Below are positions 16,802-53,789 of a stretch of 58,165 nucleotides of DNA, one piece after another (within the stretch, counting starts at the first letter, position 1; each line of letters opens with the position of its first letter). Source of the stretch: an uncultured Pseudomonadota bacterium (GTDB lineage: Bacteria; Pseudomonadota; Alphaproteobacteria; UBA9219); contig CAIXHP010000059.1 in NCBI GenBank assembly GCA_903919315.1, forward strand, positions 1 through 58,165, read 5' to 3'. Under the pieces are notes generated by a model. It saw only the letters and a list, made by a program, of their open reading frames with translations, was not told the origin of the DNA and ran no database searches. The translations under genes were made by a program, and so were the position numbers.

Positions 16802-19216
16802 TCATGATGCAGAGGCCTGCGCGGCGGACAAAAGGTTGCGGTAGCGCCGCCAGCCCAATTCCACCAACTTTTCCAGAAAAGCGCGCGGCGACAACGGCGG
16901 CTGTTCCGCCAGCGCTTGATGGAAAATGACGGTCGAAGCGGTGAGGCCAGGCAGGCTGTTCGCTTCGATCAGCATAGTCTGATTTGTCTGCACATTGAAG
17001 AAAATATCGAGCCGCGCATAGCCCTCGATCCCCAATGCTTTCGCTGCCGACACGATCTTTGTTTTGATAAGCTCCGCCTGCTGGGCGGAGAGGATGTCGG
17101 CGGGCGGCGGGGTCAGATTAACGCCTGTGCCGCCCTGAAACTTCTCTTCCAGCGACAGCACGCCGCTCTGCGCCACCGTGATGCTGGGCGAAAGGGCATG
17201 ATAGCGTCCGTCTTCCTCCATCACGCCGACGGTCAGTTCGACCCAGCCGGTGTTGCGGCTGTAGCGCAGTTCTTGCCGTTCCAGATGAATGTCGTCGGTG
17301 ACGATGAACGGTTCCATGAGCAGGATATCGGCGCTGAGCGGCAGTTCGACCGCGCCCGCGTGGTGCTTGAGGCTCCCCGGGGGCAGAAGCGGTTCACGCT
17401 TCTGCAAGGCGCGGAGGAACGTCAGCAACTCCGCCGCCGAAGCCAACCGCGCCACGCCTGCCGAACAGCCGTCGCTTCCGGGCTTGATGAGCAGATCGTG
17501 GCTTTGCAAACGGCGCTCGGCATCGGCCCAGAACGCGGCGCAGCCTTCGGGCGTGACCGTGACGGTGTTTAGCGTGAAGCTCAGCTTTGGCGCGGCGATC
17601 AGGCCGGACTCGCCTAAGGCGCGGATAACTTTGCCGGTCGCGTCCTTGTCCATGCAGAGTTTAGATGCGGTGGGGCCGGAGCCGTTGTGCGGCACGCCGT
17701 GGCGTTCCAGCAAGGCTTGCAACGTCCCGTCCTCGCCCGCGCCGCCATGCAGCGCGAGAAAGACAAAGGCATCGTCCCGCTTTGCCTGCGCGCAAAACGC
17801 CTCAAGGCTCATGCGTTCCGGTAAATCCGCCGTGGTGGCCATCGACGGTAAGCCGAGGCGCTGCCGCAGCGGCGGGACGAGCGTTTGGAGCCGTGCCGCG
17901 ACGCTGGCGGCCTCCTCGCAGTGGAACAAAATTTCTTCGACGGTGTGGTTCAGTGTGTAGGCATAGGGCAAACGCCAAACCTGATCGTCGGGAGCGAGCA
18001 AATACGGCTCCGGCGCGTAACGCCAAGACGGGCGCAACTTGAGCCACACGTTGGTGCCGGACATTAGCGACACTTGCCGCTCCGCCGTCGTGCCGCCGAA
18101 CAGGACGCGCACAGGCGTGGCCGCGCTCTTCTCCGGCGGGACAAGCGGCGGAACCTTGATGCCATAGCGCGTGGCGGCATGCGTGACGATCTGGCGCAGG
18201 ATGTCGCCGTGGGTCAGGCCGATGCGGCTGGCCTGATGGAACAAAAAGCTGTTCTGCTCCATGCCGGAAATAGGATTGAAGTCCGAGAAGATGACGCGCC
18301 CGTCCGCCAGCCACCAGCCGTCGAGCCGCGCGAAATCGCGCATGCCGAAAAATTCGAACAACACTTCGGCGGCGCGTTGGATGGCGGCGATGATTTCGTC
18401 CGGAAAGCGCGGCGGGCAGTGATAGGCGACGTGGCAGGTTGGCAGGTATTTGTGGCGAAAGCTGAAAATGCCGCCTTCGCCGCCCTGAAGCTCGATCTCG
18501 GTGGGCAACAGCGCGACGGGCTTGTCGTCATGGCCTTGAAGCGTCAGCACGGTGAATTCGCGGCCCTCGCAATAAGGCTCGATCATGGCGGCGGGGCTGA
18601 ACTGGCGGGCGAACAGCTCACGGACTTTCTCCAGCGCCTCTTCGGGCGTGTAAACCGTCGCGATGCCGAGACTGGAGCCTCCCGCCGTCGGTTTGACCAC
18701 CGCCTTATGCAAATGATGTTCGGCGAAAAACGCGCTGAGCTTGGCTTCCATCACGTCAAAGCGGTCGGTTTCCTGCACGAGACAATGGGGCAGGGGGGCA
18801 AAGCCGTGGTGCGCCAGTTGGGTGTTGGCTTTCGCTTTGTCGAACATCATCGCGCAGCTTTGGCTGGACGATCCGACAAAGGGAATGCCGTGACGCTCCA
18901 ACAGGCCTTGCAATTCTCCGTCCTCGCCGAACGCGCCATGGATGGCGGGGAACACCAGATCGACCTTGCGGCAGGCGGCGATGAACGCTTCTTCGGACAA
19001 AGGTTGCGCCGTGTGCGCCAGCTTAAAGTCGAAATCCGACGGCGTGTTGGAATACATCTGCGCGGGCGAGAGCTGGTAAAAGCGTTTCTGCGCGTCGCAG
19101 AAAAACGGCACGATCTCCCATTCCAGCGGCGACAGATGATCCAGCAGCGACCGCGCCGAATTCAACGAAATACCCCGCTCCGCCGAGGGGCCACCGCAAA
19201 TGACGGCTAAACGCAT
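16802..19216 (-). CDS. ddl: Tandem (double-domain) D-alanine--D-alanine ligase
   Basis: 804 residues against about 300-370 for ordinary Ddl. Two complete Ddl/ATP-grasp units follow one another. Unit 1 (about 1-362) has CGGPSAERGISL, HGAFGEDGELQGLLERHG, VVKPTAGGSSLGI and a metal motif changed to SDFNP (D312, N314). Unit 2 (about 368-804) has FGGTTAERQVSL, LHGGAGEDGTLQALLERHG, LIKPGSDGCSAGV and the canonical IEANSLPGLT (E751, N753). Position upstream of ftsQ-ftsA is the usual dcw place for ddl. The ATG at 19216 follows aaggaga. Unit 2 looks fully catalytic; unit 1 may be altered in substrate or activity. Confidence 0.88.
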   Translation of the reverse strand: MRLAVICGGPSAERGISLNSARSLLDHLSPLEWEIVPFFCDAQKRFYQLSPAQMYSNTPSDFDFKLAHTAQPLSEEAFIAACRKVDLVFPAIHGAFGEDGELQGLLERHGIPFVGSSSQSCAMMFDKAKANTQLAHHGFAPLPHCLVQETDRFDVMEAKLSAFFAEHHLHKAVVKPTAGGSSLGIATVYTPEEALEKVRELFARQFSPAAMIEPYCEGREFTVLTLQGHDDKPVALLPTEIELQGGEGGIFSFRHKYLPTCHVAYHCPPRFPDEIIAAIQRAAEVLFEFFGMRDFARLDGWWLADGRVIFSDFNPISGMEQNSFLFHQASRIGLTHGDILRQIVTHAATRYGIKVPPLVPPEKSAATPVRVLFGGTTAERQVSLMSGTNVWLKLRPSWRYAPEPYLLAPDDQVWRLPYAYTLNHTVEEILFHCEEAASVAARLQTLVPPLRQRLGLPSMATTADLPERMSLEAFCAQAKRDDAFVFLALHGGAGEDGTLQALLERHGVPHNGSGPTASKLCMDKDATGKVIRALGESGLIAAPKLSFTLNTVTVTPEGCAAFWADAERRLQSHDLLIKPGSDGCSAGVARLASAAELLTFLRALQKREPLLPPGSLKHHAGAVELPLSADILLMEPFIVTDDIHLERQELRYSRNTGWVELTVGVMEEDGRYHALSPSITVAQSGVLSLEEKFQGGTGVNLTPPPADILSAQQAELIKTKIVSAAKALGIEGYARLDIFFNVQTNQTMLIEANSLPGLTASTVIFHQALAEQPPLSPRAFLEKLVELGWRRYRNLLSAAQASAS

Positions 19217-19261
19217 GTTAGTCTCCTTGTTTCGGAAATCTTGATACCACAAAATGCCGCT

Positions 19262-27753: not shown

Positions 27754-28272
27754 ATGATCAAGTCAAGAATGAAGTATCTCGCCCTGGCCCTGACGGCCTC
27801 GTTCTTCATGTGCGGCGGTGCGCAAGCCGCGACGCAGTCGGTGACGGCGAATATGGCGTTCGACTCGGTTCTGTCTCTGACCAAGAACGCCGACATCAAC
27901 TTTGGAACGGTGAAGGCGAGCACGGTCGGTACTTACACAATTAACACGGCTGGCACGGTCACGCCTGCAGGCGGCGGTGTTATTGTCGGCGGCACGACGG
28001 CTTTTGGCCAAATCACCATCACCGGCTCGGCCTCGCAGACTGTATCAATCAGCACAGGAACCTACACCGCGAACAACGGCGTAACGCCTTCGGCGGCGAC
28101 TTGCTCGTATGATGGGGCCGCTGCTTCTGCGTGCGACACGCCTTTGACCGGATTGGCGGCGCCTGGTGTTGGCAAGGTTTTGAGGCTCGGTGTCACGGCT
28201 TCTTCCGACGGCACGCAAGCCGCCGGTGCGACTGCTGCCCCGACGTTCGTCGTCACGGTCATTTACGGCTAA
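27754..28272 (+). CDS. DUF4402 exported protein, probable major fibre subunit
   Basis: 172 residues with a signal peptide (MIKSRMKYLALALTASFFMC, cleavage near AQA-AT) and a DUF4402 beta-sandwich: FDSVLSLTKNADINFGTVKA, then GTYTINTAGTVTP and ITITGSASQTVSIS. A Cys pair occurs in TPSAATCSYDGAAASAC, likely a disulfide. The C-terminus is an alternating hydrophobic strand ending VIYG, with the penultimate Tyr seen in chaperone-usher pilins. A gaggag site precedes the ATG. A strong hairpin at 28316 follows, which could make this the most abundant product of the operon. Function as a pilin is inferred. Confidence 0.85.
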   Translation: MIKSRMKYLALALTASFFMCGGAQAATQSVTANMAFDSVLSLTKNADINFGTVKASTVGTYTINTAGTVTPAGGGVIVGGTTAFGQITITGSASQTVSISTGTYTANNGVTPSAATCSYDGAAASACDTPLTGLAAPGVGKVLRLGVTASSDGTQAAGATAAPTFVVTVIYG

Positions 28273-28315
28273 GCTAAGCGTTGCGCGCTGTTTGCGCGTC
28301 GTGTTGTGTTTCCGG

Positions 28316-28342
28316 CAAGGGCGGGATAGTCTCCCGCCCTTG
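28316..28342 (+). terminator. Perfect 11-bp intercistronic hairpin (attenuator or mRNA-stabilising)
   Basis: CAAGGGCGGGA pairs with TCCCGCCCTTG around a 5-nt loop. No proper T run follows, so termination would be partial. It sits 44 bp after the first subunit gene and 30 bp before the second, the position where pilus operons often place a processing or attenuation hairpin. Confidence 0.65.
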
Positions 28343-28371
28343 TTGCGTCTTATCGCTTTGAGTTTTGCGCC

Positions 28372-28875
28372 ATGACGGGATGTCGCTTTCGCCGCTGTCT
28401 TTTGCTGGCCTGCGTCGTGTGCCTGATGCCTGCGCGTGTCGGGGCCGAAGAGGGCGTGAATTTTACCGAATCCCAGAAATTGACTTTCCCGACCATGGGC
28501 CTGCCCGCCTCGGGCGGGAGCGTCAACCTGACCATCAGTCCGCTGAACTCTTCGACATCGGGATCGGCCCAGATTATTTCCGGCGTTGCGAGTCGGGGGC
28601 AGTATGCTCTGTCGTTGTCGCCCGGCGGCAATCCGGTGTCGATTTCAATCGACATAACCGGTGTTACGACCGGCAATGCCGGTTTGACACTGGACAACTT
28701 CCGTGGCTTTTATGGAAGCCAGACGATTGACAGTTTTCCCAGCCCTACGTTGCCGTTGCCGCCGCGATCGCCCGCAAGTACGCCCCTGTACATCGGCGCT
28801 CGGGCGACGGCCAATTCGGCGGTGACTCCCGGGACTTATAACGCCAGTTTCTCGGTCACCATTTTTATCCAGTAA
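28372..28875 (+). CDS. DUF4402-like exported protein, probable minor subunit
   Basis: 167 residues with a signal peptide (CRFRRCLLLACVVCLMPARV, cleavage near GA-EE). The mature protein is beta-rich and patterned like DUF4402: FTESQKLTFPTMGLPASGG, INITGVTTG-like SIDITGVTTGNAGLTLDNF, and a closing strand TYNASFSVTIFIQ. It lacks the cysteine pair and the penultimate Tyr of its paralogues, so it may be an adhesin, tip or terminator subunit. It lies between the major subunit and the chaperone gene, 16 bp before the latter. Confidence 0.7.
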   Translation: MTGCRFRRCLLLACVVCLMPARVGAEEGVNFTESQKLTFPTMGLPASGGSVNLTISPLNSSTSGSAQIISGVASRGQYALSLSPGGNPVSISIDITGVTTGNAGLTLDNFRGFYGSQTIDSFPSPTLPLPPRSPASTPLYIGARATANSAVTPGTYNASFSVTIFIQ

Positions 28876-28891
28876 CCACGGAGTTTCGCTC

Positions 28892-29731
28892 ATGTCCTCG
28901 CGTTGTTTTGTTCGTTTCGCCGTTCTGGCGGTTGTGTTGCTTCTTGCGAGTCCGGCATCAGCGCGGAACGCTGAGATGCTGCTGTCGCCGACCCGCGTCG
29001 TTCTTGAGGGAGCCAATCGCTTCGCCACGGTCACCGTGCGCAACAACGGCGACGGAGTCGGGCGCTATAAGATCGAGTTGGTCGATACGGTGATGGCCGA
29101 AAACGGGGGCATCAGGATTCGCGAAGAGGGCAGCCGCGATGAATTTTCCGCGATGGATATGCTTAGCCTCTCGCCGCGCAGCATGACTTTGAAGCCGGAC
29201 GAGAGCCAGACGGTGCGTATTCTCGTGAAGATGAAGGGCGATCTTCCCGACGGCGAATACCGTTCGCATCTGCAGGTGCGGATGACGGAGAACGACCTTG
29301 ATCTGGCGACGAACAAGCCCGCGACCGACGGCGCGAGCGTCGTCCTGAAGCCCAAGATGACGACCGTCATTCCGGTGATCATCCGCAACGGCGCGACGAG
29401 CTATAAGGTCAGCGTCGACGAGGCGCAGCTGGTCACAGGAGGCGGCGACGGGAAACCGGTGCCGCAGGTGAAGCTCGCCCTCAGCTTTTCGGGCAATCGT
29501 TCCGTGCTGGGCGATGTCAAGGTGACCCATGTCGCCGCCGAGGGCAAGGAAACGCAGTTGGCCTTTTTCCGAGGCATCGCGATTTACCGTGGCCTTGCTA
29601 AGCGCGAGCAGACCGTGGATTTGACCGTTCCTGAGGGTGTCAATGTCCACAAGGGACGGCTGCGCGTCGCCTTTATGTCGCAAGAGGCTGAGGGCAGTCA
29701 GGTTCTGTCCGAAAAAGAGATCACGCCCTAA
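28892..29731 (+). CDS. PapD-like periplasmic fimbrial chaperone
   Basis: 279 residues with a signal peptide (FVRFAVLAVVLLLASPASA). The mature N-terminus has LLSPTRVVLEGANRFATVTV and SPRSMTLKPDESQTVRILVK, the two-strand core of the first Ig domain of pilus chaperones, followed by PDGEYRSHLQVRM, the usual GEYRS turn. A second domain begins at about residue 150. Members donate a strand to immature pilins and deliver them to the usher. It lies between two DUF4402 genes and the usher-like gene, so those are its likely clients. It is nearer to the COG3121 alternate-type chaperones than to classical PapD. Confidence 0.87.
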   Translation: MSSRCFVRFAVLAVVLLLASPASARNAEMLLSPTRVVLEGANRFATVTVRNNGDGVGRYKIELVDTVMAENGGIRIREEGSRDEFSAMDMLSLSPRSMTLKPDESQTVRILVKMKGDLPDGEYRSHLQVRMTENDLDLATNKPATDGASVVLKPKMTTVIPVIIRNGATSYKVSVDEAQLVTGGGDGKPVPQVKLALSFSGNRSVLGDVKVTHVAAEGKETQLAFFRGIAIYRGLAKREQTVDLTVPEGVNVHKGRLRVAFMSQEAEGSQVLSEKEITP

Positions 29732-29768
29732 TCGTCGATTCGGGGAAATTATCGAAAAAATACAGGGC

Positions 29769-29819
29769 CGAATCGGGTTTTAAGCTCTGGTCGAATCGGG
29801 TTTTATGGTCGACCATAAA
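29769..29819. promoter_or_regulatory. Tandem CGAATCGGGTTTTA repeats and a perfect 18-bp palindrome
   Basis: CGAATCGGGTTTTA occurs at 29769-29782 and 29792-29805. The second overlaps TTTATGGTCGACCATAAA at 29802-29819, a perfect palindrome. They lie 150-200 bp upstream of the usher start, between chaperone and usher genes. A dimeric repressor or activator site is likely. Confidence 0.55.
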
Positions 29820-29972
29820 CGCTTGGTTTGATCGGTTTGGATGCCCGCTGTATGACCGCTGATTATGATCCGTTCGGCCCTTCGCTTGCGCTTCGGCGGC
29901 GAAGGATGCCTGCGATGGTATGCGTGCCGTGTCGGAGGCGTATGTCCGCGCGTCTTCGCGCCGGTGGGGTCC

Positions 29973-32900
29973 ATGCCTAGGCGCTCTATCTGGTTTGCGC
30001 GGTGGTTTGTTGTCGGCGCGGTGGCGGCGTTACTCGTCCTGTTTTCCGGAGGGCCCGCTGCGGCGGCGGACACGCAGCCTTTTCTTTCGAATTTGGAACG
30101 TCTGAAAAACGTCTTAACCGGCGAGACGGCCGCGCCGCCGATGCCTGTTGCGGACAGTGTTCTGACGCTGTTGCCGCGCGTCGAAAACGCTCCCTTTGAC
30201 GGCGAGCTTATCGAAGCGATTGATTTGCCGGGGCAGACGTTTTTGCCGCTTGCGGCTTTTGTGCGCATTCTTGGTTTCGCGATCACGGTCGATTCCGGCA
30301 AGGACATTGCCAGCGGGTTTTTCTTTGCGCCCGAGAACACGTTTAATCTCGACTTGAACAATCGTACGGTTCGCATTCGTTCGACGCAACACGCTCTGAC
30401 GCGTGGCGACGTGCGCAAACGCAACGGGCAGATTTATGTCGATGTCGCGGCGCTGACGGCTTGGTTCGGCGTGGGCAGTGCGATTGACCGGGCGCAGTCC
30501 ACCATCCTGTTCTCGACCGACCGGAAGCGGCCTCAGGAGGCGTGGGATGAACGCGCGGCGCTGTGGGCAAAACGGTACGTCGCCCTTGAGGTCGAACGGC
30601 AACAGGCGCAGGTCTTGCCAAAATGCCGCCCTGCGGCGGCGCAACGGCCGTCGGGCGGCGGCGAGCCTGTGGCGATGCGCCGGTTTAGCGGCGAGGCCAC
30701 GCCGGGTTATCAGGTCGAACTGTACCGCGACGATGCGCTGGCGGCGTTTCAGATCGCGGATGCCCAGGGCCGGTATGATTTTGCGGATATTGTCCTTTCC
30801 GAAGGCGAGCATGTCGTTCGCACCGTGGCTTATGGAGCGCAGGGCCAGCGTAGCGAAAAAACGGAAACGGTCGCCGTCACGGTGCCGCCTTGCGAGATGC
30901 CGCCTGCGGCTACGGCGACTCCCGTCGCCGATCATCCGGCGGACGTTCTGCCGCGCAAAGAAGCGTCGGCGCCGATTGCGGCGGGCAAATCTGTGGCGGC
31001 AACGGCGGCGAAGAACTGGACGGAGCGATCCATCGTCCGCGACCATCAAACGCTGGGCGCGGTCGAAGCCTTTGTCGATTTGAAGGGCACGTTCCTGCGC
31101 CTCGATAGCTTGCTGCGGCTTCTTGGAATCTCTTACAGAACGCCGGACTCGGTCTATGCGCTCGACATCGTGAGAAAGGACGGCAGCGTCGTCGCGCTGG
31201 ATATTCCCAAGCGCGTCTATGTCGAGAACGGCCAACAGCATGGGCTTTATGATAACGACGCTTTCGGCAACGAGGACAAAATCTTTGTCAACATGACGCT
31301 GCTCAACCGTATTTTGCCGCCCAACCAGTTTGTTGAAGACCCGACCACGCGGTCGGTCGATGTTACCGAAGCTCAGGGGGGGATTCTGGGGTTGTGGTCT
31401 GACACGACGACGGATACAGCGGATATGGCTCCGCCTCCCTTGGCCGCGCCGGTTCAGCCGGTCATTGTCGATGATGTGTCGTCAGGCCAGCAGCAGGCCT
31501 CCGGCGCGGCGGCTTCGACGACCGAAGCTCCGGCGGAAGCGGGCGATGTTCTGCATCTGGAGCAACCCGCCGCGCCGTTGCCGCCTTCTCCTGCTCCGCC
31601 GTCCGCCGTGGTCGCCGCGCCGCCTAAGGTCGAGTCCGTGACGACCCGTGTTGCCGATAAAGGCGCGGAGGAGACGGATGATAAAACCGACGGCAACGAT
31701 GTTCTGATTCTCCAGCCGCGCATCAAGAGCCAGCCGCCCAGCAATGTTTTTATCGAGGCGCTTGATCTGCCGGGCGGCGTTTTCCTTCCGCTCAACGACC
31801 TCGTTCAGATTCTGGAATTTCCGATCAAGGTCGATCCGGAGCGCAGCACGGCGAGCGGATTTTTTCTTGCGCCGGAAAATATCTTTGAGCTTGATGTCGA
31901 AAAACGCGCGGCGCGCGTCGGCTCGGAACGTTATTCTGTGACGCGGAGCGACGTGCGTCGCCGCGAGGGGCAAATTTACGTCAGTGTCGAGAGCTTTGCC
32001 AAATGGTTCGGGATCGCGAGCGCGATTGATCGGACGCAGTCCACCATCCATTTCACAACAGACAAAAAACTGCCGGAGGAGGAGCGGGAGGAACGGCAGA
32101 AGCGCTGGCAGAAAATGCTGGCCGTGGTCGAGCCTGACGGCAATCATGATCCGGTGTTGCAAAATGATTATCAGGCGATTGGTTATCCGACCGTCGATGT
32201 CAATCTCGGTTCGTCGTACACGCATACGGCGCAGGCTTCGTCGTCCGGCGGCGAGGGGTCACAGCCTTTTGCGGCCAACTACAACATTCAGGGCGCGATG
32301 GATCTGGCTTATCTGACCGGCCAGTTCTATGCGCAAGGCTCTATGGACGGCAGCATGATGGACACGTTGCGCTTTCAGGCGGGACGCAAGGACCCCGGCG
32401 GCGGGTTGCTGGGTGGACTGCATGCCACGGAGTTTTCCTTGGGCGACGTGACATCGCCGTCGTTGACGCTTGTGACGTCCAATTCGCTCGGCCGCGGGTT
32501 TACGGTGTCCAATCGGGATTTGTCCGCTTCCGAGAATTTTGATTTTCGTAATTTCAGCGGCGACTCCGTGCCGGGCTATGAGGTCGAGTTGTACCGCAAC
32601 AACGTCCTTGTCGCGTTTCAGACGGTTGACGCGAGCGGCCGCTATAACTTCGTCAACATTCCTATTCTTTACGGCGAGAATACGTTCCGCATTGTTTTCT
32701 ATGGCTCGCAGGGACAACGCGAGGAACGGGTCGAGAGCGTGTCCGCTTCCAGCGCTTTGCTTAAGGAAAACAAATTCGTTTATACGCTGGCTGCCGACGA
32801 GCGCGGCAAGAATCTTCTTCCTGTCGGTCGGGAAAGCGCGGCCAATCCCTCGACCCCTGCGGGGATGCAACTGGTCGGCGGCGTGCGCTATGGCTTGACA

Positions 32901-34469
32901 CGCGATGTGACGGTCGGCGCGGCGCTGGCTTCGACGAATCTGAGCGACGGCGAGCATCGTTATGTGAGCGTGACGACCGGCGCGAATATTCAGGGTGTGT
33001 TGACCGAGACAACCGTTGCCAAGGATTTGACCGACGGCGGATGGGCGGGCAGCGTGTCGGCGCTCGGCGGATTTTACGGCATTAGCCTGCGCGCGCGGTA
33101 CCGTCATTTCAGTGATTTTCTAAGCGAGTCCGTCAACAACTTTGACCTTCCTCTCGCGTCCGATGCCGCGCTTGACGCGAACACGCAGCTTTATGTGCCG
33201 ATCTTGGGCGATTACAGCGTCGGTTTTTCGGCGTTGCGCGAGAGCTTTGCCGATACGTCGCTGGTCCCGCGTAATACCTATAGCTGGCGTTCGTCGAAGA
33301 GCCTTTGGGGGCTGAGTTTCACCAGTTCGGCGGAGTATATCGTCGATGCTGAGAAGCGGTTTCAGGACACGTTCGGCGTTCAGACCCGTTTGTGGGGCGT
33401 GGATTTGCGCGCGGTGGGCACTTACGAGATCAAGCCGGTGCGGCGGTTTCGCGACGCGAATTTTATGGCGGACTATCGCTTGACGGAGCGTCTGTCCGCG
33501 CAAACGCAAATCGAGAAAGACCTGACCAGCAGCGATCGCACGTCGTTCGGCCAGAGCATCAATTGGGATTTCGATACGTTTCGCCTGAGTTTTTACGGCC
33601 AAATGGACAACAGCTCGCAGTATTCCGTCGGCATGAACGTTTTGTTTTCACTCAATCACGACAAGGCGACGGACAGTTGGCGGATGCAGCCGCAGCAGAC
33701 CTCCGGCGGCGGCGCGATCACGGGGCGGGTTTTTGTGGACGAAGACGGCGACGGAAAGCCCGACGAGGGCGGAAAGCTCATGCCCGATGTCAAGGTGCGT
33801 GTGAATCGCGCGGCGGCCACGTTGAGTCCGGACGGTTACTTTGTCGCGCCCGTCACGCCCTATGAGCCGTCGCGCGTGGAACTGGACGAAGGCTCTATCA
33901 CCGATCCTTTGCTGACTCCGGTCACGCGGGGGTATCAGGTTGTCACGCGGCCGGGCGACACGGTCGTGGCCGACTTCCCGCTGGTGCGCACGACGATCAT
34001 CGACGGCACGGTGACGTTCCTCGACGACAAGGGCGACAAGCGCGAACTGGGCGATATTGTTGTTGAGCTGGAGGACAAGGACGGCAAGCCGCTGCGTCGT
34101 GTCATGAGCGCGGTCGACGGCTATTTTATCTTTGATAAAATTAAGATCGGCGAATATTTGCTGACGGTGCCGGAGGAAGCGCTTGCAGCCTATAACGCCG
34201 CGCTCGACAGCAAGGTTCGCATTGTCATCGAGGAAGTCAGCGAGTTTGTTACCGGCAAAGACATTCTCTTGCTTCAGAAGGAAAAGTTGAACGGCCCGCC
34301 GATCTTCGATCCGATTGCTCCAGCCGCTGCGTCCGGCGAGACCGCGCCGCCGCTTCCTTCGATTCCGTCGCTGCCGCCGCCCGAAGCGATGAAGCCGGAG
34401 TCGTATGAAGTGAAGCCTCGGTCTTCGGTCTCTTCCGACCCGCTACCTCCTGGGACGGCGGAGGAATAA
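29973..34469 (+). CDS. Usher-like outer-membrane protein with duplicated N-terminal half and C-terminal SdrD/Cna-B-like domain
   Basis: 1498 residues from the ATG at 29973 (signal peptide WFVVGAVAALLVLFSGGPAA). Residues about 69-200 and 590-715 are copies of one module (FIEALDLPGGVFLPLNDLVQ, SAIDRTQSTI). An FSG..PGY-VELYR module occurs at about 238-295 and 859-915. A related module lies at about 352-480. A Pro/Ala-rich linker occupies about 490-585. Residues about 760-1230 are beta-strand rich and read as an usher-type barrel (NKFVYTLAADERGKNL, GFSALRESFADTS). From about 1244 is GRVFVDEDGDGKPDEGG, an SdrD-like calcium-loop segment. Its role as secretion pore for the DUF4402 subunits is inferred. 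An upstream ATG at 29865 is possible but precedes no signal peptide. Confidence 0.72.
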   Translation: MPRRSIWFARWFVVGAVAALLVLFSGGPAAAADTQPFLSNLERLKNVLTGETAAPPMPVADSVLTLLPRVENAPFDGELIEAIDLPGQTFLPLAAFVRILGFAITVDSGKDIASGFFFAPENTFNLDLNNRTVRIRSTQHALTRGDVRKRNGQIYVDVAALTAWFGVGSAIDRAQSTILFSTDRKRPQEAWDERAALWAKRYVALEVERQQAQVLPKCRPAAAQRPSGGGEPVAMRRFSGEATPGYQVELYRDDALAAFQIADAQGRYDFADIVLSEGEHVVRTVAYGAQGQRSEKTETVAVTVPPCEMPPAATATPVADHPADVLPRKEASAPIAAGKSVAATAAKNWTERSIVRDHQTLGAVEAFVDLKGTFLRLDSLLRLLGISYRTPDSVYALDIVRKDGSVVALDIPKRVYVENGQQHGLYDNDAFGNEDKIFVNMTLLNRILPPNQFVEDPTTRSVDVTEAQGGILGLWSDTTTDTADMAPPPLAAPVQPVIVDDVSSGQQQASGAAASTTEAPAEAGDVLHLEQPAAPLPPSPAPPSAVVAAPPKVESVTTRVADKGAEETDDKTDGNDVLILQPRIKSQPPSNVFIEALDLPGGVFLPLNDLVQILEFPIKVDPERSTASGFFLAPENIFELDVEKRAARVGSERYSVTRSDVRRREGQIYVSVESFAKWFGIASAIDRTQSTIHFTTDKKLPEEEREERQKRWQKMLAVVEPDGNHDPVLQNDYQAIGYPTVDVNLGSSYTHTAQASSSGGEGSQPFAANYNIQGAMDLAYLTGQFYAQGSMDGSMMDTLRFQAGRKDPGGGLLGGLHATEFSLGDVTSPSLTLVTSNSLGRGFTVSNRDLSASENFDFRNFSGDSVPGYEVELYRNNVLVAFQTVDASGRYNFVNIPILYGENTFRIVFYGSQGQREERVESVSASSALLKENKFVYTLAADERGKNLLPVGRESAANPSTPAGMQLVGGVRYGLTRDVTVGAALASTNLSDGEHRYVSVTTGANIQGVLTETTVAKDLTDGGWAGSVSALGGFYGISLRARYRHFSDFLSESVNNFDLPLASDAALDANTQLYVPILGDYSVGFSALRESFADTSLVPRNTYSWRSSKSLWGLSFTSSAEYIVDAEKRFQDTFGVQTRLWGVDLRAVGTYEIKPVRRFRDANFMADYRLTERLSAQTQIEKDLTSSDRTSFGQSINWDFDTFRLSFYGQMDNSSQYSVGMNVLFSLNHDKATDSWRMQPQQTSGGGAITGRVFVDEDGDGKPDEGGKLMPDVKVRVNRAAATLSPDGYFVAPVTPYEPSRVELDEGSITDPLLTPVTRGYQVVTRPGDTVVADFPLVRTTIIDGTVTFLDDKGDKRELGDIVVELEDKDGKPLRRVMSAVDGYFIFDKIKIGEYLLTVPEEALAAYNAALDSKVRIVIEEVSEFVTGKDILLLQKEKLNGPPIFDPIAPAAASGETAPPLPSIPSLPPPEAMKPESYEVKPRSSVSSDPLPPGTAEE

Positions 34470-35024
34470 GGGCGACAATAACAAAATATTTTTTTTCGAA
34501 ACCAACCCGTGCGCCGTTCTGCGCTGTGTTCGGTGAAAATTTGCTAAAATTTGCCTGAAATTTCGTGCCGTTATTGTGCAGTGCAATGATATTCTTGAGG
34601 AAAACGTGGTTAAGACGTGCGTCGTCTCAGTGGCCGATAGAGGGTTGTGGAAGCGTGGATGTGCTGAATGTGTTTGCGTTATAGATCGTGATTTATCTCT
34701 GTTTCATCGTTGATTTTCATGCAATCTACATACAACCGTAGGTGCGGATGAATTTTGTTGGATGCGCGGTTTTTCGTCGCGATGGTTGGAATAGAGTTAT
34801 CGGCGTTCTCATTCTGCGATGTGTCCTTTTTATCGTTGGGCCTGCGTTTGCAAATTGCGAGTCGATTTCAATAGTGTTGTGCAGCGCATGATCTGCATGT
34901 GGCTGCATACTAGACTATGCGCGTATTACACCGTTTCATTCACCTGTCATGGTATACTGAGAGGGTTCGATAGTGTGAGATTTTGCATATTGAGTTGGTG
35001 CGGCGAGCCGAGGGTTACTTGGTT
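34470..35024. other. AT-rich spacer before the third DUF4402 gene
   Basis: No gene seen. At 34536-34565 are three phased A/T tracts (AAAATTTGC, AAAATTTGC, GAAATTTCG) at about 10-bp spacing, a pattern that bends DNA. Around 34878-34925 are several TGCA/GCATG motifs. Composition is distinctly more AT-rich than the genes on either side, so the last subunit gene probably has its own promoter. Confidence 0.5.
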
Positions 35025-35531
35025 ATGATGTGTCCCCTTTTGAAATGGCTGGTCTGTTCGTCTCTTGTCCTGTTCGCGGGCAATGTTGCGGCTGCGACTC
35101 AATCTATGACGGCGAGCATCGGCTTTGATTCCTTGCTCAGCATCACCAACAGCACCAACATCAGCTTTGGTTTCGTGAAGGCGGATCAGGCGGGAACGTA
35201 TACGATCTCGCCCACCGGTCAGGTCACGTCTTCGAATGATGGCCAGTGGTTGGGCGGCGGGATGAGCGCGGGTTCGATGACCATAGCGGGTTCGGCGACG
35301 CAAACAATCGACATCAACGTAAACAACTATGTTGCCGACAAGGGCGTGACTCCTTCGGCGGCGACTTGCGCCTATGACGGAGGAGGGAGCGCTCCCTGTT
35401 CATTGGCCAGTCTGGCCGCTCCGGGTTCCGGCAAGCCGTTGTTGGTCGGCATTACCGTTGCCGTGGACGGCACGCAAACCACAGGCGCTACAGCCGCGCC
35501 GTCCTTCGACGTCGTCGTCAATTATCACTGA
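35025..35531 (+). CDS. DUF4402 exported protein, second major-type subunit paralogue
   Basis: 168 residues with a signal peptide (LLKWLVCSSLVLFAGNVAA, cleavage near A-ATQ). Closely related to the protein at 27754: TASIGFDSLLSITNSTNISF, GTYTISPTGQVTS, MTIAGSATQTIDI, TPSAATCAYDGGGSAPC and the ending FDVVVNYH with a penultimate Tyr. It is separated from the usher gene by 555 bp, so it may be expressed under different conditions as an alternative fibre subunit. The start could also be the ATG at 35028. Confidence 0.8.
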   Translation: MMCPLLKWLVCSSLVLFAGNVAAATQSMTASIGFDSLLSITNSTNISFGFVKADQAGTYTISPTGQVTSSNDGQWLGGGMSAGSMTIAGSATQTIDINVNNYVADKGVTPSAATCAYDGGGSAPCSLASLAAPGSGKPLLVGITVAVDGTQTTGATAAPSFDVVVNYH

Positions 35532-46456: not shown

Positions 46457-49400
46457 TCAGCTGATGCGCTTCAGGCTGTCTTCCGCCTGACGCTGCAGCA
46501 CATGGTCAACCGTGTCGCCCATGACATCGCCCGTGGCGGACAACTGACGCAGGATCTGCTCCAGCGAATTGAGCAAATCCTCGCCCTGCAGCTTGAGCGC
46601 GACGCGCATGCGGTCGGTGCGTTGCTGCATCTCTTCGATGGACTTGTTCATCTGCAGGACTTGCGTCTGAGCGTCGACGACCGCGTGGTTCATGCTGTGC
46701 GTTTGGTCGGCGTACATTTGCCCGACGCCGCGCACGATCTCGGTGACGGTCTTTGACCCGTCGGTGAGCCCGCGCATTTGCTTTTCGACGCTGTGGGCGA
46801 CCTCAGAGAGGCGCGCCACGGCTTCGTCGCTGACATCGGCGGTGAGAACGCGGTTCGATTCGAGCCGTTCGGCAACCGAGCCGAGATGGCCGAGCGCCGT
46901 CTGCAACTGGCCGATCAGATCGCTTTCATGCCGCTTGATGCCGTCGCCCGCCATCGACAACCGGTCGAGCAACACGTCGATCTGGTCGCCAAAGCCGCTC
47001 AACAGCTTGGCCACTTCCTCGGTCGCGACGCGCATACGCGCCGTGCGGTCGCTGAGCTGGTTCGCCGTATCCTTGCTGGTCTGGTCGAAGCGTGTGGCGA
47101 TCTTTTCCACGTCCGCCACGGTGCCCGCTGTGGCCGAGCGCAGGGTGGTGCCGGTGCGCTCCAACTGCGCCGTGATTTGCATCAGTCCACGGTTGATGTC
47201 GTCGATCTGCATCTGCACGCCCGTGCGGATGCGCTCCAACTGCTCGCGGAAGCTCTGGCTGGCGCTCAGCATCTGGCCTTCGGCGCGTTCGGTCGTTTCG
47301 GTCAGGAGCGTGATCTGCTTGTTGACCCCTTCGCTGGCCTGAGCCAAGCGCTGTGTGGTCGCGCCTGTGCGGGCATCGATCACGTCGAATTCACGCGCCA
47401 GCTTTTCCGTCGTCTGCACGGCTTCGTCGCGCAGCTTGGCCAGACGCTCGGCCGAGGCGGAGAGTTGGGCGATGCTGTGCGCCGACTTTTCGACCAGTTC
47501 GGTCTGCTCGGCGGACATTTTCTTGCCGCCCAGCTGGATCGCATCGATCTGTTCGGCCAGAGCCTTGTTAAAGGCGCGCAGGGTCTGGTCGGAGGTTTCG
47601 GCCACCTTCTCCAGATTCCGCGCTTCGTCCATCATCGAGTCGCGTACCGCGCCCGTGACGTTGATAAAGCGGTCGGCCGTGCCGAGAATGGCATAGTCGA
47701 TGACTCCGGCCTGTTCCTTGAACGTCTTGCCGGTCGCTTCGATCCGTGCCGTGCTGCGGTCGAGGACGACGGGCAGCTGAACGGATTCGTCGCGCACCAG
47801 CGTCGCCGCCTGCACAAGCGCCGATTCGGAACTCGCCAGATTGGCGCGGAGCGTGTCGCTCTGCGTCGTGAGGTCGAGACCAGCCGCTGTGACTTGCTCG
47901 ACGGCAAGCTGCGAGACTTCGGCAACATGTTCCAATTCGCGCTGCAGCGTGGTCTTGACCTCGGCGATGCGCGCGCTGACCTGATCCAGCATGGCGCGTC
48001 CGTCGCGGTCGCTCGCGGCCATCGTGTCGCGCAACGTGACGAGGCGCGTGGTGGCGTATTCGGCGGTGTCGGCCAGTTGTCGCGCCTGTTGCTCGGTCGT
48101 CTCGCCCGCCTCGGTGACGGTCTTGACGTGGATGCGGATCTTGTCGCCCGCGCTGGCCACGCGCGCTTCGGCCTGTTCGGCGACGGCGGCGAGGATTTCG
48201 GCCTGCTTCTCAAGCGTTTCGTTGGTGGTTTTGGCCAAGCTGGAGAACTGCAGCACCGATTGATCCATGCTGTTGATCACGCTGCCGCTTTGCTGCTTGA
48301 GCTGCTGGCTGGTGGTGTCGAGTTGGGTTACCACGCCGTTCAGCTGTTCGATGACGCGCGACGATTCGCCCTGCATCGATTCCCGCAGCTGCCGCGCCTG
48401 ATCCTGCATGGCGGCGGTGACGGAGAGCATGCCGCGCACCTGTTGCTCGGTCTGCTGGGCCTGAATGTTGAGCGTTCCGGCTTCATCGACGAACCCGGCT
48501 CCGGCGGCCCGCACGTTGGCAAGCGTGTTCTGCGCCACCGATTCGAGCGCGACCATCTGCTTGGTGATCTGTTGCGTGTTGTCGGTGAGACGGGCGGCGT
48601 TGCGTTCCGCGACCGCTGACGTTTCGTCCTGCGCCAAAGCCAGACGGTTGAGCAGAGCGTTCAACGTGTCGCGCTGTTGGTCAAGCGACGAGGTGAGCGC
48701 GCGCTGCCGTTCGCTGATCTGCTGCATGCTGGCGATAAGCGCCGTGGTCTGTTCGTTGACCGAGCCGTGCAGCGTGGTCAGCGTGCCTTCCGCCGTGGTG
48801 CCCAGATCGCGAAGATCCTTGCTGCCGCTGGTGAGCTTGGCGAGGATCGTGTCGAGCGCCAGACCCGTGCGGTCGCTCTCGCTCTGGATCGTTTCGCGCA
48901 TCTGGCGCGCTTGTTCTTGCATCATCGACACATTGGCAAACAGCGCTTGCGTTTGCTGTTCGGCCTGCTGCGCGTGTTGGCTGAGGGCGGCGGATTCGTC
49001 CCCGAAACGCGCGCCGGCCACATGGACGTTGGCCAGAGTCGTGTTGGCCTGCGTGTCGATTTCGTCCATCTGGCGCGCGATTTGCAGGATGTTGTCGGTA
49101 AGCCGCGCGGCGCAGCGCTCCGCCACCGTGGTGGCTTCGTCTTGTGCGGTGGTCAGGCGGTTCAGCAAACCATTGAGCGTTGTGCTTTGCGAATCCAGCG
49201 TGTCGTTGAGAACGCGTTGACGTTCGTCGATCTGCCGCATCGTGCCGGTCAAAGCCGTCGTTTGCGCGTCGACGGTGCCCCGCAGGTGCGTGAGCATGGT
49301 TTCCGCCGAAGTTCCCAGATCGATCAGCTGTGTGTTGCCGCCGTCCAGTTTTTGCAGCAGCGCGGTGAGCGCCTGCGTCACGCGGTCGCTCTCGCCATCG

Positions 49401-52400
49401 AGGCTTGCGCGCAACTGTACGGCTTCTTTCTGCAGCGTCGCGGTGTTGTTGAACAGGGCTTGCGCCTGCTTCTCGGCCTGCTGCGCGTTGCTGGCGAGCG
49501 TTGCGGATTCTTCGGCAAACCCGGCGTTGACCTTGCGGATGCTGGCAATCGAAGACTCGGCGCAAGAATCGATGGTTTCGATCTGCTCGGTGATTTGGCG
49601 GGTGCTGTCGGACAGACGGTTAACGCTGCGCTCGGCCACGGCGGCGGTTTCGTCCTGCGCCAGCGTCAGGCGATTGAGCAAGCCGTTCAACACGTCGCGC
49701 TGCGCGTCGAGCGCAGTGGTCAGGCCGCGTTGCCGGTCGCTGATCTGCTGCATCGAGCTGTTCAGTGCCGATGTTTGTTGCGTGACGTTGTTGTTCAGGC
49801 TGGTCAGCGTGACTTCGGCGGTGGCACCGAGATCGCGCAGCTCGCTGTTTCCGGCGCTGATGCGGCCCAAGAGGCTGCCCAAAATCTCGCCGGTGCGTTC
49901 GCCTTCGCCATGCAGAGCGTCGCGCAACTGGCGCGCCTGATCTTGCAACGCCGAGGTGACGGAGAGGACGGTGCGGGCCTGTTGTTCGGCCTGCTGCGCA
50001 TGTTGGAGCAGCGAGCCCGCCTGATCGGCAAAGCCTGTGCCCGCCGTGCGGACGTTGGCCAGCGTGGTCTGCGATTGATCGCTGAGGACGCCCAACTGAC
50101 GCTGAATCTGCTGCAACGCGTCGGTGAGGCGGGTGATGGTGCGTTCCGCCACTTCGGAGGCTTGGCCATGCGCCGAGCCGAGTTTGTCGAACAGATCGAC
50201 CAACTGGGTGCGCTGGTTTTCGTTGGCGGCGGTGAGGGCGCGATGCTGTTCGCTCAGCTGATCGCCGACGAGATTGAGCGACGCGACCTGTTGCGTGATG
50301 CTGGCCCCGAGGCTGTTGAGCGTGGTGTCGGCCTTGGCCGCTATGTCGAGCAGTTCCTGACTGGTGCTGCCGATACGACTGGAGGCGTTCTGAGTCATTT
50401 CGTGGAACCGCGACGAAGCCTGATCGGCACCGAGCGTGGCGGTGGCCGCCGCTTGTTGCAGTTTGGCGGTCGTCGCGTCGAGTTGGCCGACCGTTTCGCT
50501 GAGCGAGGTGACGAGGCGGTGATTGTTCTGCTCCATCGCCGCGCGGATTTGCGTCGATTGATCGGCAAAGGCGGTCGTGGCGGCGCTGAGGTTGCGGATG
50601 TTTTGTTCAACCTGATGCGTGGAATCGATCATGCGCGTGGACTGTTCGCCAAAAGCGGTTCCCGCCTTTTGGATCATGATCACCGCGTTCTGCGCCGCGT
50701 CGTTGAGGCCGTTGCTCTGGCGTTGGAAGGCGTTGTTGGCTTCCTCGATGCGCGCGACGGATTGCTGCGCGCTGTTGACGGTGGTTTCTTGGGTGACGGC
50801 CAGCTTCTCGTTGAGGAGGCTGAGTTGTTGCAGCGTCTTGCCGCCCGCGCCGGTAATCTGGCTGGCGGTCGCTTCCAACTGGGTTGATCCCGTGCCGATC
50901 AGGCTGATCTGCTGCTGCAACACGTTGTTGAGGGTTTCGACGTTGGTTTGCGCTTGCGCGGCGGTTTGACCGAGCTTGGCGGCGCGGGTCTCGAATTCGT
51001 CCGCCGTGGCGCGGGTCATCTCGCCGTAATGCGTGGCCATGCGGTCGAGCAGGGCTTGCGCGGTGTCGGTGCGCTGCTTGAGCGATTCGCCCAGAATCGT
51101 GAACTTTTGCTCGGCGCGCGCCAGATCGGCGTTGAGGTCGTCGGCCTGCTTTTGCAGAACCGCGCGAATCTGCGCCGCTTCGGTCTGGAGCGCGGAGGTG
51201 ACGATTTGGATTTTCGTACCGGAATCTTCGGCGTCGCGTTGCAACTGTTGCGAATGCTGGCTGACCTGCGAGGCGGCCTGCTGCAGGATGCTGACGGCCT
51301 GCGACGTGTTGCCTCCCAACAAGCCGACTTCCTTTTGCAAGCGGTCGGCGACCGAGCCGAATTGTTCGATCGTGCTGCGCGCGGAATCCTCTTGCGCGGC
51401 GCGCGCGGCGAGGAAACGCCCGTTGAGTTGTTCGATGGTGTTCAGCGTTTCGGTGGTCATGCGGCTGACTTCTTCGCCCATGCCGTTGACGCGGGTGTTG
51501 AACTGCTGCAGGCGAGTCAATTGCTCCTGCATGTTTTCGCCATAGCGGCCCACGGATTCGAGGCCTTGAGTCGTGCATTGCTCGATCTCGTGCACAGCCT
51601 GCTGCACCGGAATGGCGGCGCTCGAGGAGAAATCTTTCAAACGCTGATCGGCGCTGTCGAGCCGCTCCTGCGTTTCCTTGAGCAAGGATGTGAGGCTGAG
51701 ATTCTGTTCGCGCATCGTCTGCTCGGCCGTCTTCGCCTGGTTTTGCAGCTGCTCGATGGTGCCGCGCAGGCTGGTTTCCGCCGCCTGCGCTTGGCCCGTG
51801 ATCGCGCCTTCTTGACGTCCCAGCGATTCCGTGGCGATGCCGAGGGCATGCACGGTCATCTGTGCCGCTTCGTTGATGCGGGTGATGACGACTTCGTTCT
51901 GGTCGACAGCGGCGCGGAGCTTTTCGGTCAGCGTTTCGCCCACGCTTTGGGTCGCGTCGCGCGTGGCCAACAGGCGTTCCAGAACATGTTGCAGGTTTTG
52001 CAGCGCGGATCCGGCGCGGGTCTGAACTTCCTGTCCGGCCATTTGCGAAGCGTTGAAGAGAGCTTCGAACTGCGACAATTGGGTGCCGATTTCGCTGGTG
52101 ATTGAGCGCACCTTTTCCTTGTGCTCGTCGGAGGTCGTGCCGAGCTGAAGGGCGGCGGCTTCGTATTTCGCCGCCGTTTCAGTGAGGTGGGCGGCAATGT
52201 CGTCCGCGCCGCGCCGTGCTTCGGCGTTGACAGCGGTAAATTGCTTGAGCGCGTCGTCGGCGCGGTTGCCGAGATGCGCGAGGCTGCCTTGCAGTTGTTG
52301 CGACAAATCGTCGGTCGCGTCGCCGATCCGCGCCACGAGGCCGTCGAGATCGCTGCGCCGCTGTTGCAAGCCGTGGTCGATGTCCTGAATCTTGACCCCG

Positions 52401-53557
52401 AACCGATCAAGCACGCCTTGCAGCCCTTCGATCTGCTCGCCCAGCTTATCGCCGAGATGGACGGCCTGTTCGCGCGCGAGCTGTTCGCTGGCATACAGGC
52501 GGTCGGCGACGCCGCGCAGGACGGTTTCGGCCTCGATGACGCGGGCGGGGAGGGTGCTGCTGAATTCGTCCAGTACGCGGGTCTGCGAATCAAGCGCGCC
52601 TGCAAGACGTTCGGCCTCTTCGCGCGCGGTGCTGGCGCGCTCGAGGAAATGGGCGATGTTGATGTCGATTTTGCCGGACAAGTCTTGCAGCGTTGACGAG
52701 GCGCTCTCGGCGGCGTTAATGAGGCTGGATTCCTGCGCCCGCGCGGTGTCGGACAGTTTTTTGCTGTCGCGCATGGCTTGTTCGAGGGAGGTGCTGACAA
52801 TTTGCGTGTTCGATTCGATGTCTTGCAGCAGGGTACTCAACTGCTCGCGCACCGCTTCGGTCTGGCGCGAAACGCCGTCGCCGCTCTGCAAAAGCTTGCC
52901 GTCGAGGATGCGCAGCATGGTGAACTTGTCTTCCATCAATTGCTCGATGTGCTGCATGCTGTGACGGATGACGTCTTGGATTTCCTTGACCTGATAAACG
53001 CTGTGCTGTTCGAACTGTTCCAACTCGTTCTTGTGTTGGCGCACGCGTTCCATGATCGTCATCATGTCGTCGTGGTTGACATCCTTGGTGGTGCGGAGAA
53101 GGTCGAGCTGCTCGCGGATCGCCTGATTAAAGCGGCGGATGCGCACTTCGGCGGCGCCTGATTCGCCCGTGATCATCATGAGCTGGCGACGCAACGGCTC
53201 GGCGACCGACTGCACGTCGGCGGCGCGCTGCAGGTACGCCGTGACCATCCAGATCATGCCGACCGGCGAGGCAATGGCCGAAATGCCGATAGCCCAGTTG
53301 ACGAGCGGCAGCCCGCCGAAGGTGTGAGTCGTTCCCGATTGCATCAGCGCGATGGCGACCACGCCCACCCAAACGATGGAAAGCGCAAGCCCCATCCAGA
53401 AAGGCATGCCGGAGAAATTCATCGGCTTTTTCGGAGCCGCGCGGCGCATGGCGGGCTTGGCCGCCGGTTGCTGCGGCGCTGGCGCGCTTTGGGGCTTGGT
53501 CGAATCGAGGGTTCGGACGGGGGACGGACTTAGAGAAGGATGATTAGGATCGACCAT
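46457..53557 (-). CDS. Giant membrane-anchored coiled-coil protein with 171-residue repeats
   Basis: 2366 residues. A Pro/Ala-rich cytoplasmic N-terminus (about 1-48) precedes two transmembrane helices (about 53-73 and 86-109). Almost all the rest is heptad-like, Gln/Ala/Thr-rich coiled coil. Four tandem units of 171 residues (LNGLLNRLTLAQDETAAVAE as reference, 513 bp period) lie at about 48200-50220. Topology and coiled-coil content recall Caulobacter TipN (888 residues, two N-terminal helices), but this is far longer and homology is not shown. A polar scaffold or septum/cell-shape role is inferred. It is followed closely by cysQ and lies 232 bp after mutS. Confidence 0.8.
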   Translation of the reverse strand: MVDPNHPSLSPSPVRTLDSTKPQSAPAPQQPAAKPAMRRAAPKKPMNFSGMPFWMGLALSIVWVGVVAIALMQSGTTHTFGGLPLVNWAIGISAIASPVGMIWMVTAYLQRAADVQSVAEPLRRQLMMITGESGAAEVRIRRFNQAIREQLDLLRTTKDVNHDDMMTIMERVRQHKNELEQFEQHSVYQVKEIQDVIRHSMQHIEQLMEDKFTMLRILDGKLLQSGDGVSRQTEAVREQLSTLLQDIESNTQIVSTSLEQAMRDSKKLSDTARAQESSLINAAESASSTLQDLSGKIDINIAHFLERASTAREEAERLAGALDSQTRVLDEFSSTLPARVIEAETVLRGVADRLYASEQLAREQAVHLGDKLGEQIEGLQGVLDRFGVKIQDIDHGLQQRRSDLDGLVARIGDATDDLSQQLQGSLAHLGNRADDALKQFTAVNAEARRGADDIAAHLTETAAKYEAAALQLGTTSDEHKEKVRSITSEIGTQLSQFEALFNASQMAGQEVQTRAGSALQNLQHVLERLLATRDATQSVGETLTEKLRAAVDQNEVVITRINEAAQMTVHALGIATESLGRQEGAITGQAQAAETSLRGTIEQLQNQAKTAEQTMREQNLSLTSLLKETQERLDSADQRLKDFSSSAAIPVQQAVHEIEQCTTQGLESVGRYGENMQEQLTRLQQFNTRVNGMGEEVSRMTTETLNTIEQLNGRFLAARAAQEDSARSTIEQFGSVADRLQKEVGLLGGNTSQAVSILQQAASQVSQHSQQLQRDAEDSGTKIQIVTSALQTEAAQIRAVLQKQADDLNADLARAEQKFTILGESLKQRTDTAQALLDRMATHYGEMTRATADEFETRAAKLGQTAAQAQTNVETLNNVLQQQISLIGTGSTQLEATASQITGAGGKTLQQLSLLNEKLAVTQETTVNSAQQSVARIEEANNAFQRQSNGLNDAAQNAVIMIQKAGTAFGEQSTRMIDSTHQVEQNIRNLSAATTAFADQSTQIRAAMEQNNHRLVTSLSETVGQLDATTAKLQQAAATATLGADQASSRFHEMTQNASSRIGSTSQELLDIAAKADTTLNSLGASITQQVASLNLVGDQLSEQHRALTAANENQRTQLVDLFDKLGSAHGQASEVAERTITRLTDALQQIQRQLGVLSDQSQTTLANVRTAGTGFADQAGSLLQHAQQAEQQARTVLSVTSALQDQARQLRDALHGEGERTGEILGSLLGRISAGNSELRDLGATAEVTLTSLNNNVTQQTSALNSSMQQISDRQRGLTTALDAQRDVLNGLLNRLTLAQDETAAVAERSVNRLSDSTRQITEQIETIDSCAESSIASIRKVNAGFAEESATLASNAQQAEKQAQALFNNTATLQKEAVQLRASLDGESDRVTQALTALLQKLDGGNTQLIDLGTSAETMLTHLRGTVDAQTTALTGTMRQIDERQRVLNDTLDSQSTTLNGLLNRLTTAQDEATTVAERCAARLTDNILQIARQMDEIDTQANTTLANVHVAGARFGDESAALSQHAQQAEQQTQALFANVSMMQEQARQMRETIQSESDRTGLALDTILAKLTSGSKDLRDLGTTAEGTLTTLHGSVNEQTTALIASMQQISERQRALTSSLDQQRDTLNALLNRLALAQDETSAVAERNAARLTDNTQQITKQMVALESVAQNTLANVRAAGAGFVDEAGTLNIQAQQTEQQVRGMLSVTAAMQDQARQLRESMQGESSRVIEQLNGVVTQLDTTSQQLKQQSGSVINSMDQSVLQFSSLAKTTNETLEKQAEILAAVAEQAEARVASAGDKIRIHVKTVTEAGETTEQQARQLADTAEYATTRLVTLRDTMAASDRDGRAMLDQVSARIAEVKTTLQRELEHVAEVSQLAVEQVTAAGLDLTTQSDTLRANLASSESALVQAATLVRDESVQLPVVLDRSTARIEATGKTFKEQAGVIDYAILGTADRFINVTGAVRDSMMDEARNLEKVAETSDQTLRAFNKALAEQIDAIQLGGKKMSAEQTELVEKSAHSIAQLSASAERLAKLRDEAVQTTEKLAREFDVIDARTGATTQRLAQASEGVNKQITLLTETTERAEGQMLSASQSFREQLERIRTGVQMQIDDINRGLMQITAQLERTGTTLRSATAGTVADVEKIATRFDQTSKDTANQLSDRTARMRVATEEVAKLLSGFGDQIDVLLDRLSMAGDGIKRHESDLIGQLQTALGHLGSVAERLESNRVLTADVSDEAVARLSEVAHSVEKQMRGLTDGSKTVTEIVRGVGQMYADQTHSMNHAVVDAQTQVLQMNKSIEEMQQRTDRMRVALKLQGEDLLNSLEQILRQLSATGDVMGDTVDHVLQRQAEDSLKRIS

Positions 53558-53789
53558 TGTTCGCCTCAACGCCTTGGAAAGAGAGAGTCAAATAACCAGA
53601 CGCGGCCAAGATCATCGCAGGACGCAACGCAACCAATCCGGCGACAAGGCGCATGTAGGCACAGTGACAGCGTCGCGAGTGTAGAGTCCTCTCTTTCAAA
53701 AGGGAAGCGTTAACAGCGCCCAAGTCGTTCATGCGCCGAAAAAGTTACCGAGAGGACACGCCGCTAAGCTCTTGAGCGTTGACAGCGTT

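Follow-up and report, generated by a model that had tools for sequence, protein, structure and literature searches.

What do DUF4402 proteins, members of a Pfam family without a known function, build together with a periplasmic chaperone and a giant outer-membrane protein when the three are encoded side by side? The question is raised by a locus in a stretch of 58,165 nucleotides, analysed here as a whole and referred to as the window (contig CAIXHP010000059.1 of assembly GCA_903919315.1), from an uncultured alphaproteobacterium of the lineage UBA9219. A preliminary description of this DNA had proposed that the DUF4402 proteins are subunits of chaperone–usher-type fibres assembled by a non-classical usher. 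Homology and gene clustering support this proposal, while the formation of fibres itself has to be inferred. The observations on which it stands are the homology of all three components to their chaperone–usher counterparts, their conserved clustering, the predicted topology of the usher, and the existence of two subunit classes with a characteristic gene placement. The locus comprises the following genes.

27754–28272, + strand: DUF4402 subunit 1 (Pfam PF14352, 31.5 bits, above the cut-off), with an N-terminal extension; proposed shaft pilin.
28372–28875, + strand: DUF4402 subunit 2 (PF14352, 38.4 bits), without the N-terminal extension; proposed tip or initiator.
28892–29731, + strand: PapD-like periplasmic chaperone (PapD_N, 21.7 bits, just below the cut-off of 23).
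29973–34469, + strand: divergent usher (frame open from 29865, likely start at ATG 29973; longest open reading frame 29865–34469, 1534 amino acids).
35025–35531, + strand: DUF4402 subunit 3 (open reading frame 34983–35531, with a better ATG at about 35025; 25.1 bits against a cut-off of 25.2), with an N-terminal extension.

All five genes are present at the place and in the order previously claimed for them, all on the + strand, and all three subunits belong to PF14352, the third falling 0.1 bit below the cut-off. A whole-genome search of the 2.4-Mb source genome found three DUF4402 genes, every one of them at this locus. The genes of subunit 2 and the chaperone are separated by 16 bp. The usher likely starts at ATG 29973, because the region preceding this codon is not conserved as coding in the nearest relative (locus L167), with which it can be aligned only with indels, not all of them multiples of three; a G-rich, Shine–Dalgarno-like GGTGGGG precedes the same ATG. 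Provided that this start is correct, the spacer before the usher measures about 240 bp, as had been stated. Signal peptides were assigned by visual inspection and a crude rule, without SignalP. Opposite-strand genes for a T2SS protein F and an isochorismatase-like protein flank the locus and lie outside it.

The Pfam entry for DUF4402 carries no function, in contrast to the pilin role that we propose for its members in the window, and a survey of the open-licence literature yielded nothing on DUF4402 (PF14352) or on divergent ushers of the kind described here. After most of the signal peptide had been cut off, profile–profile comparison paired DUF4402 with the SCPU pilins of archaic systems at 96.2% (E 2.3e-9), with reversed controls at 0.2–0.3%; the same method gives 51% for SCPU against the classical Fimbrial pilins and 1.2% for DUF4402 against Fimbrial (PF00419). 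A PDB sequence search with the family profile gave no matches. The AlphaFold2 (AF2) model of subunit 1 (pLDDT 87) leaves residues 24–40 without a strand, and its residues from about 37 to 172 match chaperone–usher pilins, many of them in truncated, domain-only or chaperone-bound forms. Foldseek retrieved mostly such pilins with this model (CfaB as the top match, and PapA, Caf1, CS17, FimI, CsuA/B, CsuE and FimA), albeit with modest E-values (best 3e-3) and with a few non-pilin beta folds among the matches. VIA gave a Z of 8.0 for the pilin domain of PapG and of 6–7 for FimG, CfaB, CsuA/B, CupE and EcpA, values that unrelated models attain as well and that are weak evidence alone. The incomplete Ig fold of pilins is thus met by the AF2 match, in so far as a single subunit was modelled and no complex, and a complete, self-sufficient Ig domain, which the preliminary description had named as a refuting result, did not turn up. 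As judged from its profile, the list of similar predicted folds and its genomic context, which all agree, DUF4402 is a family of chaperone–usher pilins.

The chaperone family reaches 97.6% in profile–profile comparison with PapD-family chaperones, mostly over domain 1 (reversed control 1.5%), and a PDB sequence search with its profile gave marginal matches to FimC and CsuC. The invariant proline of PapD-like chaperones is located in strand D1 (position from PMC4654587), and the equivalent residue is kept in 16 of 16 relatives of the window's chaperone; membership among PapD-like two-domain chaperones with this proline is met. Most relatives also have an arginine that aligns by eye with Arg8 of PapD. 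Arg89 of CsuC is typical of non-classical chaperones (PMC4654587) and forms part, together with Tyr196 and Arg174, of the carboxylate anchor expected in the archaic group; in our alignment by eye its column holds mostly histidine in the window's chaperone family, with a conserved arginine two residues earlier.

The large protein had been called merely usher-like. By profile comparison and predicted structure it is a true but divergent usher homologue, with hhalign, Foldseek and VIA all matching it to ushers. Its parts are listed here in their order along the gene.

30150–30617, + strand: duplicated usher N-terminal domain, copy 1 (residues 96–251; 49% identity to residues 610–765, E 2e-40).
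30639–30881, + strand: duplicated plug domain outside the barrel (residues 259–339; 47% identity to the barrel plug at 882–962, E 2e-21; also in L167).
31059–31319, + strand: third, divergent N-terminal-domain-like module (residues 399–485; family HMM domain i-E 9e-6; also in L167).
31692–32159, + strand: usher N-terminal domain proper (Pfam Cu_amine_oxidN1; aligned to the archaic usher N-terminal domain).
32190–33689, + strand: predicted 24-strand barrel, with the plug inserted after strand 6 (AF2 strand count; VIA).
32508–32750, + strand: barrel plug domain (self-comparison with the free plug; AF2 strand count).
33792–34277, + strand: C-terminal domains CTD1 and CTD2 (Pfam SdrD_B and CarboxypepD_reg; colinear with the archaic usher C-terminal domains in hhalign).

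An alignment of 15 members of this usher family matched 13 archaic ushers at 99.8% in hhalign (E 3.9e-29) over 705 columns, which span the N-terminal domain, the barrel, the plug and both C-terminal domains; classical ushers gave 98.6%, and sequence-reversed controls stayed at or below 9%. In the AF2 model (pLDDT 76.6, pTM 0.59), a hand count on the DSSP string gives six barrel strands, a six-strand insert and then 18 further strands, amounting to a predicted barrel of 24 strands. In FimD and PapC the barrel has 24 strands, and the plug sits between the sixth and the seventh. Ranks 1–18 of the Foldseek search with the usher model were all occupied by FimD and PapC (E from 1.5e-27, for FimD, to 1.4e-14), the first non-usher match being SdrD at 3e-9, and the top 15 in VIA were all ushers (FimD reaches a Z of 23.7, the best barrel other than an usher 15.9). 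The usher architecture, comprising an N-terminal domain, a 24-strand barrel, a plug after strand 6 and C-terminal domains, is met by this predicted topology. Pfam recognizes in the protein, above the cut-offs, only Cu_amine_oxidN1, SdrD_B and CarboxypepD_reg; Pfam Usher (PF00577) has no match in the window's usher or in the source genome, and a PDB sequence search with the usher-family profile returned no ushers, only SdrD-like C-terminal domains. A copper-amine-oxidase role, which the Cu_amine_oxidN1 matches could suggest, was rejected: those regions align with the usher N-terminal domain.

The giant size of the window's usher results from the duplication of the N-terminal domain and the plug in its first half. 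Among 80 scanned loci the same arrangement occurs elsewhere only in L167; it is a trait of the window's lineage and not of the usher family as a whole. The plug outside the barrel and the extra N-terminal modules might provide additional docking sites for chaperone–subunit complexes, but this is a guess, and their function is unknown.

The three components belong together well beyond the window. Among 289 alphaproteobacterial genomes, the usher family occurs in 20, DUF4402 in 13 and both in 10 (hypergeometric p 5e-11), and in 10 of these 10 the usher and DUF4402 genes lie on one contig, a few kb apart. A set of 398 Pseudomonadota genomes gave a similar picture, with the usher present in 10 of the 11 that have DUF4402 over the cut-off (p 1e-16), here too within about 2 kb. 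Neither p-value is corrected for genome relatedness, yet the co-occurrence is not a matter of chance. Hence the second result that had been named as refuting, a lack of DUF4402 genes beside chaperone and usher genes in other genomes, did not materialize either, and the neighbourhood predicted for Alphaproteobacteria is found, as a rule with no more than a few kb between the genes. When 84,980 species genomes were scanned for a plug-domain pattern, 155 relatives were confirmed, and 80 of them were kept; a chaperone gene is present at 71 of these 80 loci and a DUF4402 gene within 6 kb at 68, several of the loci that lack one or the other being situated on short contigs. The usual gene order is shaft–tip–chaperone–usher. 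Hosts include Micavibrio, Oceanibaculum, Pseudoalteromonas, Shewanella, Colwellia, Marinobacter, Desulfobulbus, Lujinxingia, a member of Bdellovibrionales and a metagenome-assembled genome (MAG) of Acidobacteriota, and in Polaromonas the locus is found on plasmids. The system extends beyond Alphaproteobacteria.

Where this system belongs among the known ones is less straightforward. Chaperone–usher pathways have been divided into three groups, alternative, classical and archaic, with six clades (PMC9452303). In a tree of 57 ushers (31 sampled members of the new family, 15 archaic, 10 classical and EcpC), the 31 family members make up one side of a branch of length 1.33 with an SH-aLRT support of 99%, separate from the archaic and the classical ushers. 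This is a quick tree, in which the archaic set itself is not monophyletic; EcpC, the sole alternative usher included, falls near the new family, and its placement is unsure because its branch is very long (2.57). We think that the window's system probably represents a fourth major chaperone–usher group, one with DUF4402 pilins, which occurs in Alpha-, Beta- and Gammaproteobacteria, Desulfobacterota, Myxococcota, Bdellovibrionota and Acidobacteriota and whose usher, in the window's lineage, also carries a second, free plug and additional N-terminal domains facing the periplasm. Such a group may have remained unnoticed so far because its usher mostly escapes the Pfam Usher model.

The alternative that survives best, although we consider it unlikely, is that the system belongs to the known archaic (sigma) group as a divergent member, like Csu, and has no branch of its own. 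The archaic ushers are indeed the best profile match of the window's usher, and DUF4402 matches the SCPU pilins rather than classical fimbrial subunits. Archaic pili (Csu of Acinetobacter baumannii and CupE of Pseudomonas aeruginosa) also resemble the system in the domain order of the usher, the PapD-like chaperone, the wide spread over phyla and the N-terminal donor strand of the pilins, whose GTYxDTVTVTVTY-like C-terminus is similar to the GTYxxTxxVTVxY motif found here. Their pilins, however, are of the SCPU family (PF05229), for which hmmscan found no match in the window subunits (E 1) or in 25 DUF4402 proteins (E 0.1), which leaves only a remote similarity between profiles; the window's proteins likewise lack a Pfam Usher match, their usher stands apart from the archaic set in the tree, and the column of CsuC Arg89 in the chaperone appears to be one of histidine. 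The archaic tip CsuE has two domains, as opposed to one in the tip proposed for the window. We do not file the system as an archaic member, because two archaic features, SCPU pilins and an usher inside the archaic clade, were tested and not met.

The two hallmarks of the classical group, an usher and pilins recognized by PF00577 and PF00419, are not seen in the window's proteins. Classical pili (type 1 and P pili) share the predicted 24-strand barrel, the plug after strand 6, and the N-terminal and two C-terminal domains, but the identity of their ushers to the window family is only 12%, and they have a separate tip lectin domain, which the window's proposed tip lacks. As regards the alternative (alpha) pili (CFA/I and ECP), CfaB is the top Foldseek match of the DUF4402 model and EcpC adjoins the new family in the tree, with an unsure placement, but their pilin families differ from DUF4402.

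The putative fourth group can also be read for its mode of assembly, since DUF4402 proteins fall into two classes, with or without an N-terminal, donor-strand-like extension of about 15 residues. The distance from the signal cleavage site, predicted by a crude rule, to the first-strand motif (LxFG) is bimodal, with 7–12 residues in one class and about 22 in the other. In the window, mature subunit 1 starts with ATQSVTANMAFDSVLSLTKNADINFG, and mature subunit 2 with EEGVNFTESQKLTFPT, close to the first-strand motif; subunits 1 and 3 are 49% identical. The extension of the long class shows alternating hydrophobic residues (e.g. SVTANMTF), as do the donor strands of CsuA/B (PMC4654587). At loci with at least two subunits, the gene nearest the chaperone is of the short class in 31 cases and of the long class in 10, whereas among the genes farther away 4 are short and 45 long (Fisher p 3e-11, a value that is too small because the loci are related and not independent). 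Natural two-domain fusions of DUF4402 (L168:10083-11051, L169:11191-12132, L246:6494-7498, L069:9764-10777, L031:1842-2762 and also one in L235) have a first domain that begins almost at the LxFG motif and a donor-strand-like linker before the second. This order, with the extension-lacking domain first, fits donor-strand exchange; the linker could fill the groove of the first domain.

A donor strand in the polymerizing subunits and its absence from the tip, as expected of chaperone–usher pili, is thus met, though on sequence evidence only. A subunit without the extension could accept a strand but could not give one, and would therefore have to end the chain at the tip. The product of the second gene (28372–28875), previously described as a minor subunit, indeed appears to be a subunit, but its class and placement refine its role: it is best read as the tip or initiator, with the first and third genes encoding shaft subunits, the tip position being an inference. 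In the mechanism that we propose, DUF4402 proteins would be exported into the periplasm as pilins with an incomplete Ig-like fold and held there by the PapD-like chaperone until they reach the outer-membrane usher, whose N-terminal domain would take in the chaperone–subunit complex. Donor-strand exchange would join the subunits, the plug-gated 24-strand barrel would let the fibre exit, the extension-lacking subunit (28372–28875) would start the fibre and sit at its tip, and the extension-bearing ones (27754–28272 and 35025–35531) would build the shaft. That the locus encodes a divergent chaperone–usher pathway with DUF4402 pilins is, taken as a whole explanation, very probable in our opinion, although polymerization, donor-strand exchange, surface fibres, the tip position and any adhesive or biofilm role are inferred.

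It is conceivable, but would surprise us, that the usher homologue secretes or displays DUF4402 proteins singly or as an amorphous coat, without any fibre. No fibre has been observed, and some genomes have DUF4402 genes without this usher; some DUF4402 genes are situated away from any usher of the family (in genomes G144 and G518, and as extra copies in several genomes). A conserved extension of the length of one strand in one subunit class and its absence from the other are not readily reconciled with such a role, nor are the location of the extension-lacking class beside the chaperone gene and the order of the domains in the fusions, all of which fit the assembly of a chain. For the notion that the large protein has nothing to do with ushers, being a beta-barrel with carboxypeptidase-regulatory-like domains that adjoins DUF4402 genes for some other reason, one could invoke the SdrD_B and carboxypeptidase-regulatory-like labels given to its relatives by Pfam and RefSeq. 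This notion is hardly credible and is contradicted by the profile and fold comparisons, in which the protein matches ushers over its full length, far better than other barrels.

Indeed, the relatives of the usher are called 'carboxypeptidase regulatory-like domain-containing protein' or 'SdrD B-like domain-containing protein' in RefSeq, and those of the subunits and the chaperone 'DUF4402 domain-containing protein', 'molecular chaperone', 'fimbria/pilus periplasmic chaperone' or 'hypothetical protein'. Should a divergent chaperone–usher pathway with DUF4402 pilins be confirmed, many outer-membrane proteins now labelled 'carboxypeptidase regulatory-like' would receive a correct annotation, DUF4402 would gain a pilin function, and a further deep chaperone–usher branch across many phyla would add pili to environmental bacteria without such annotation. 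The sharp split between subunits with and without a donor strand, together with the tip-first fusions, makes the assembly model directly testable.

Several further observations were made in passing. Extra DUF4402 genes distant from the usher family occur in genomes of family f13 (G481:C4:99590-101032 and similar). The highest number of DUF4402 genes among the genomes sampled, at least 14 on many contigs, was found in a 0.9-Mb alphaproteobacterial genome (G282, with loci L031, L049, L052, L054 and L057). Some members of the usher family carry POTRA or SPOR domains, apparently at the N-terminus in L061 (G275) and at the C-terminus in L058 (G160), and a Pseudoalteromonas plasmid has genes for SPOR proteins near its usher gene, one of them overlapping the end of the latter (L247:7757-8395). 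Elsewhere in the window, an open reading frame of 2370 amino acids (46457–53569, − strand), without a Pfam match at 1e-5, shows by eye apparent membrane segments near its start and a long coiled-coil-like sequence. Another one, of 816 amino acids (16805–19252, − strand), matches the N and C domains of D-Ala-D-Ala ligase twice each and represents a tandem, or fused, ligase.
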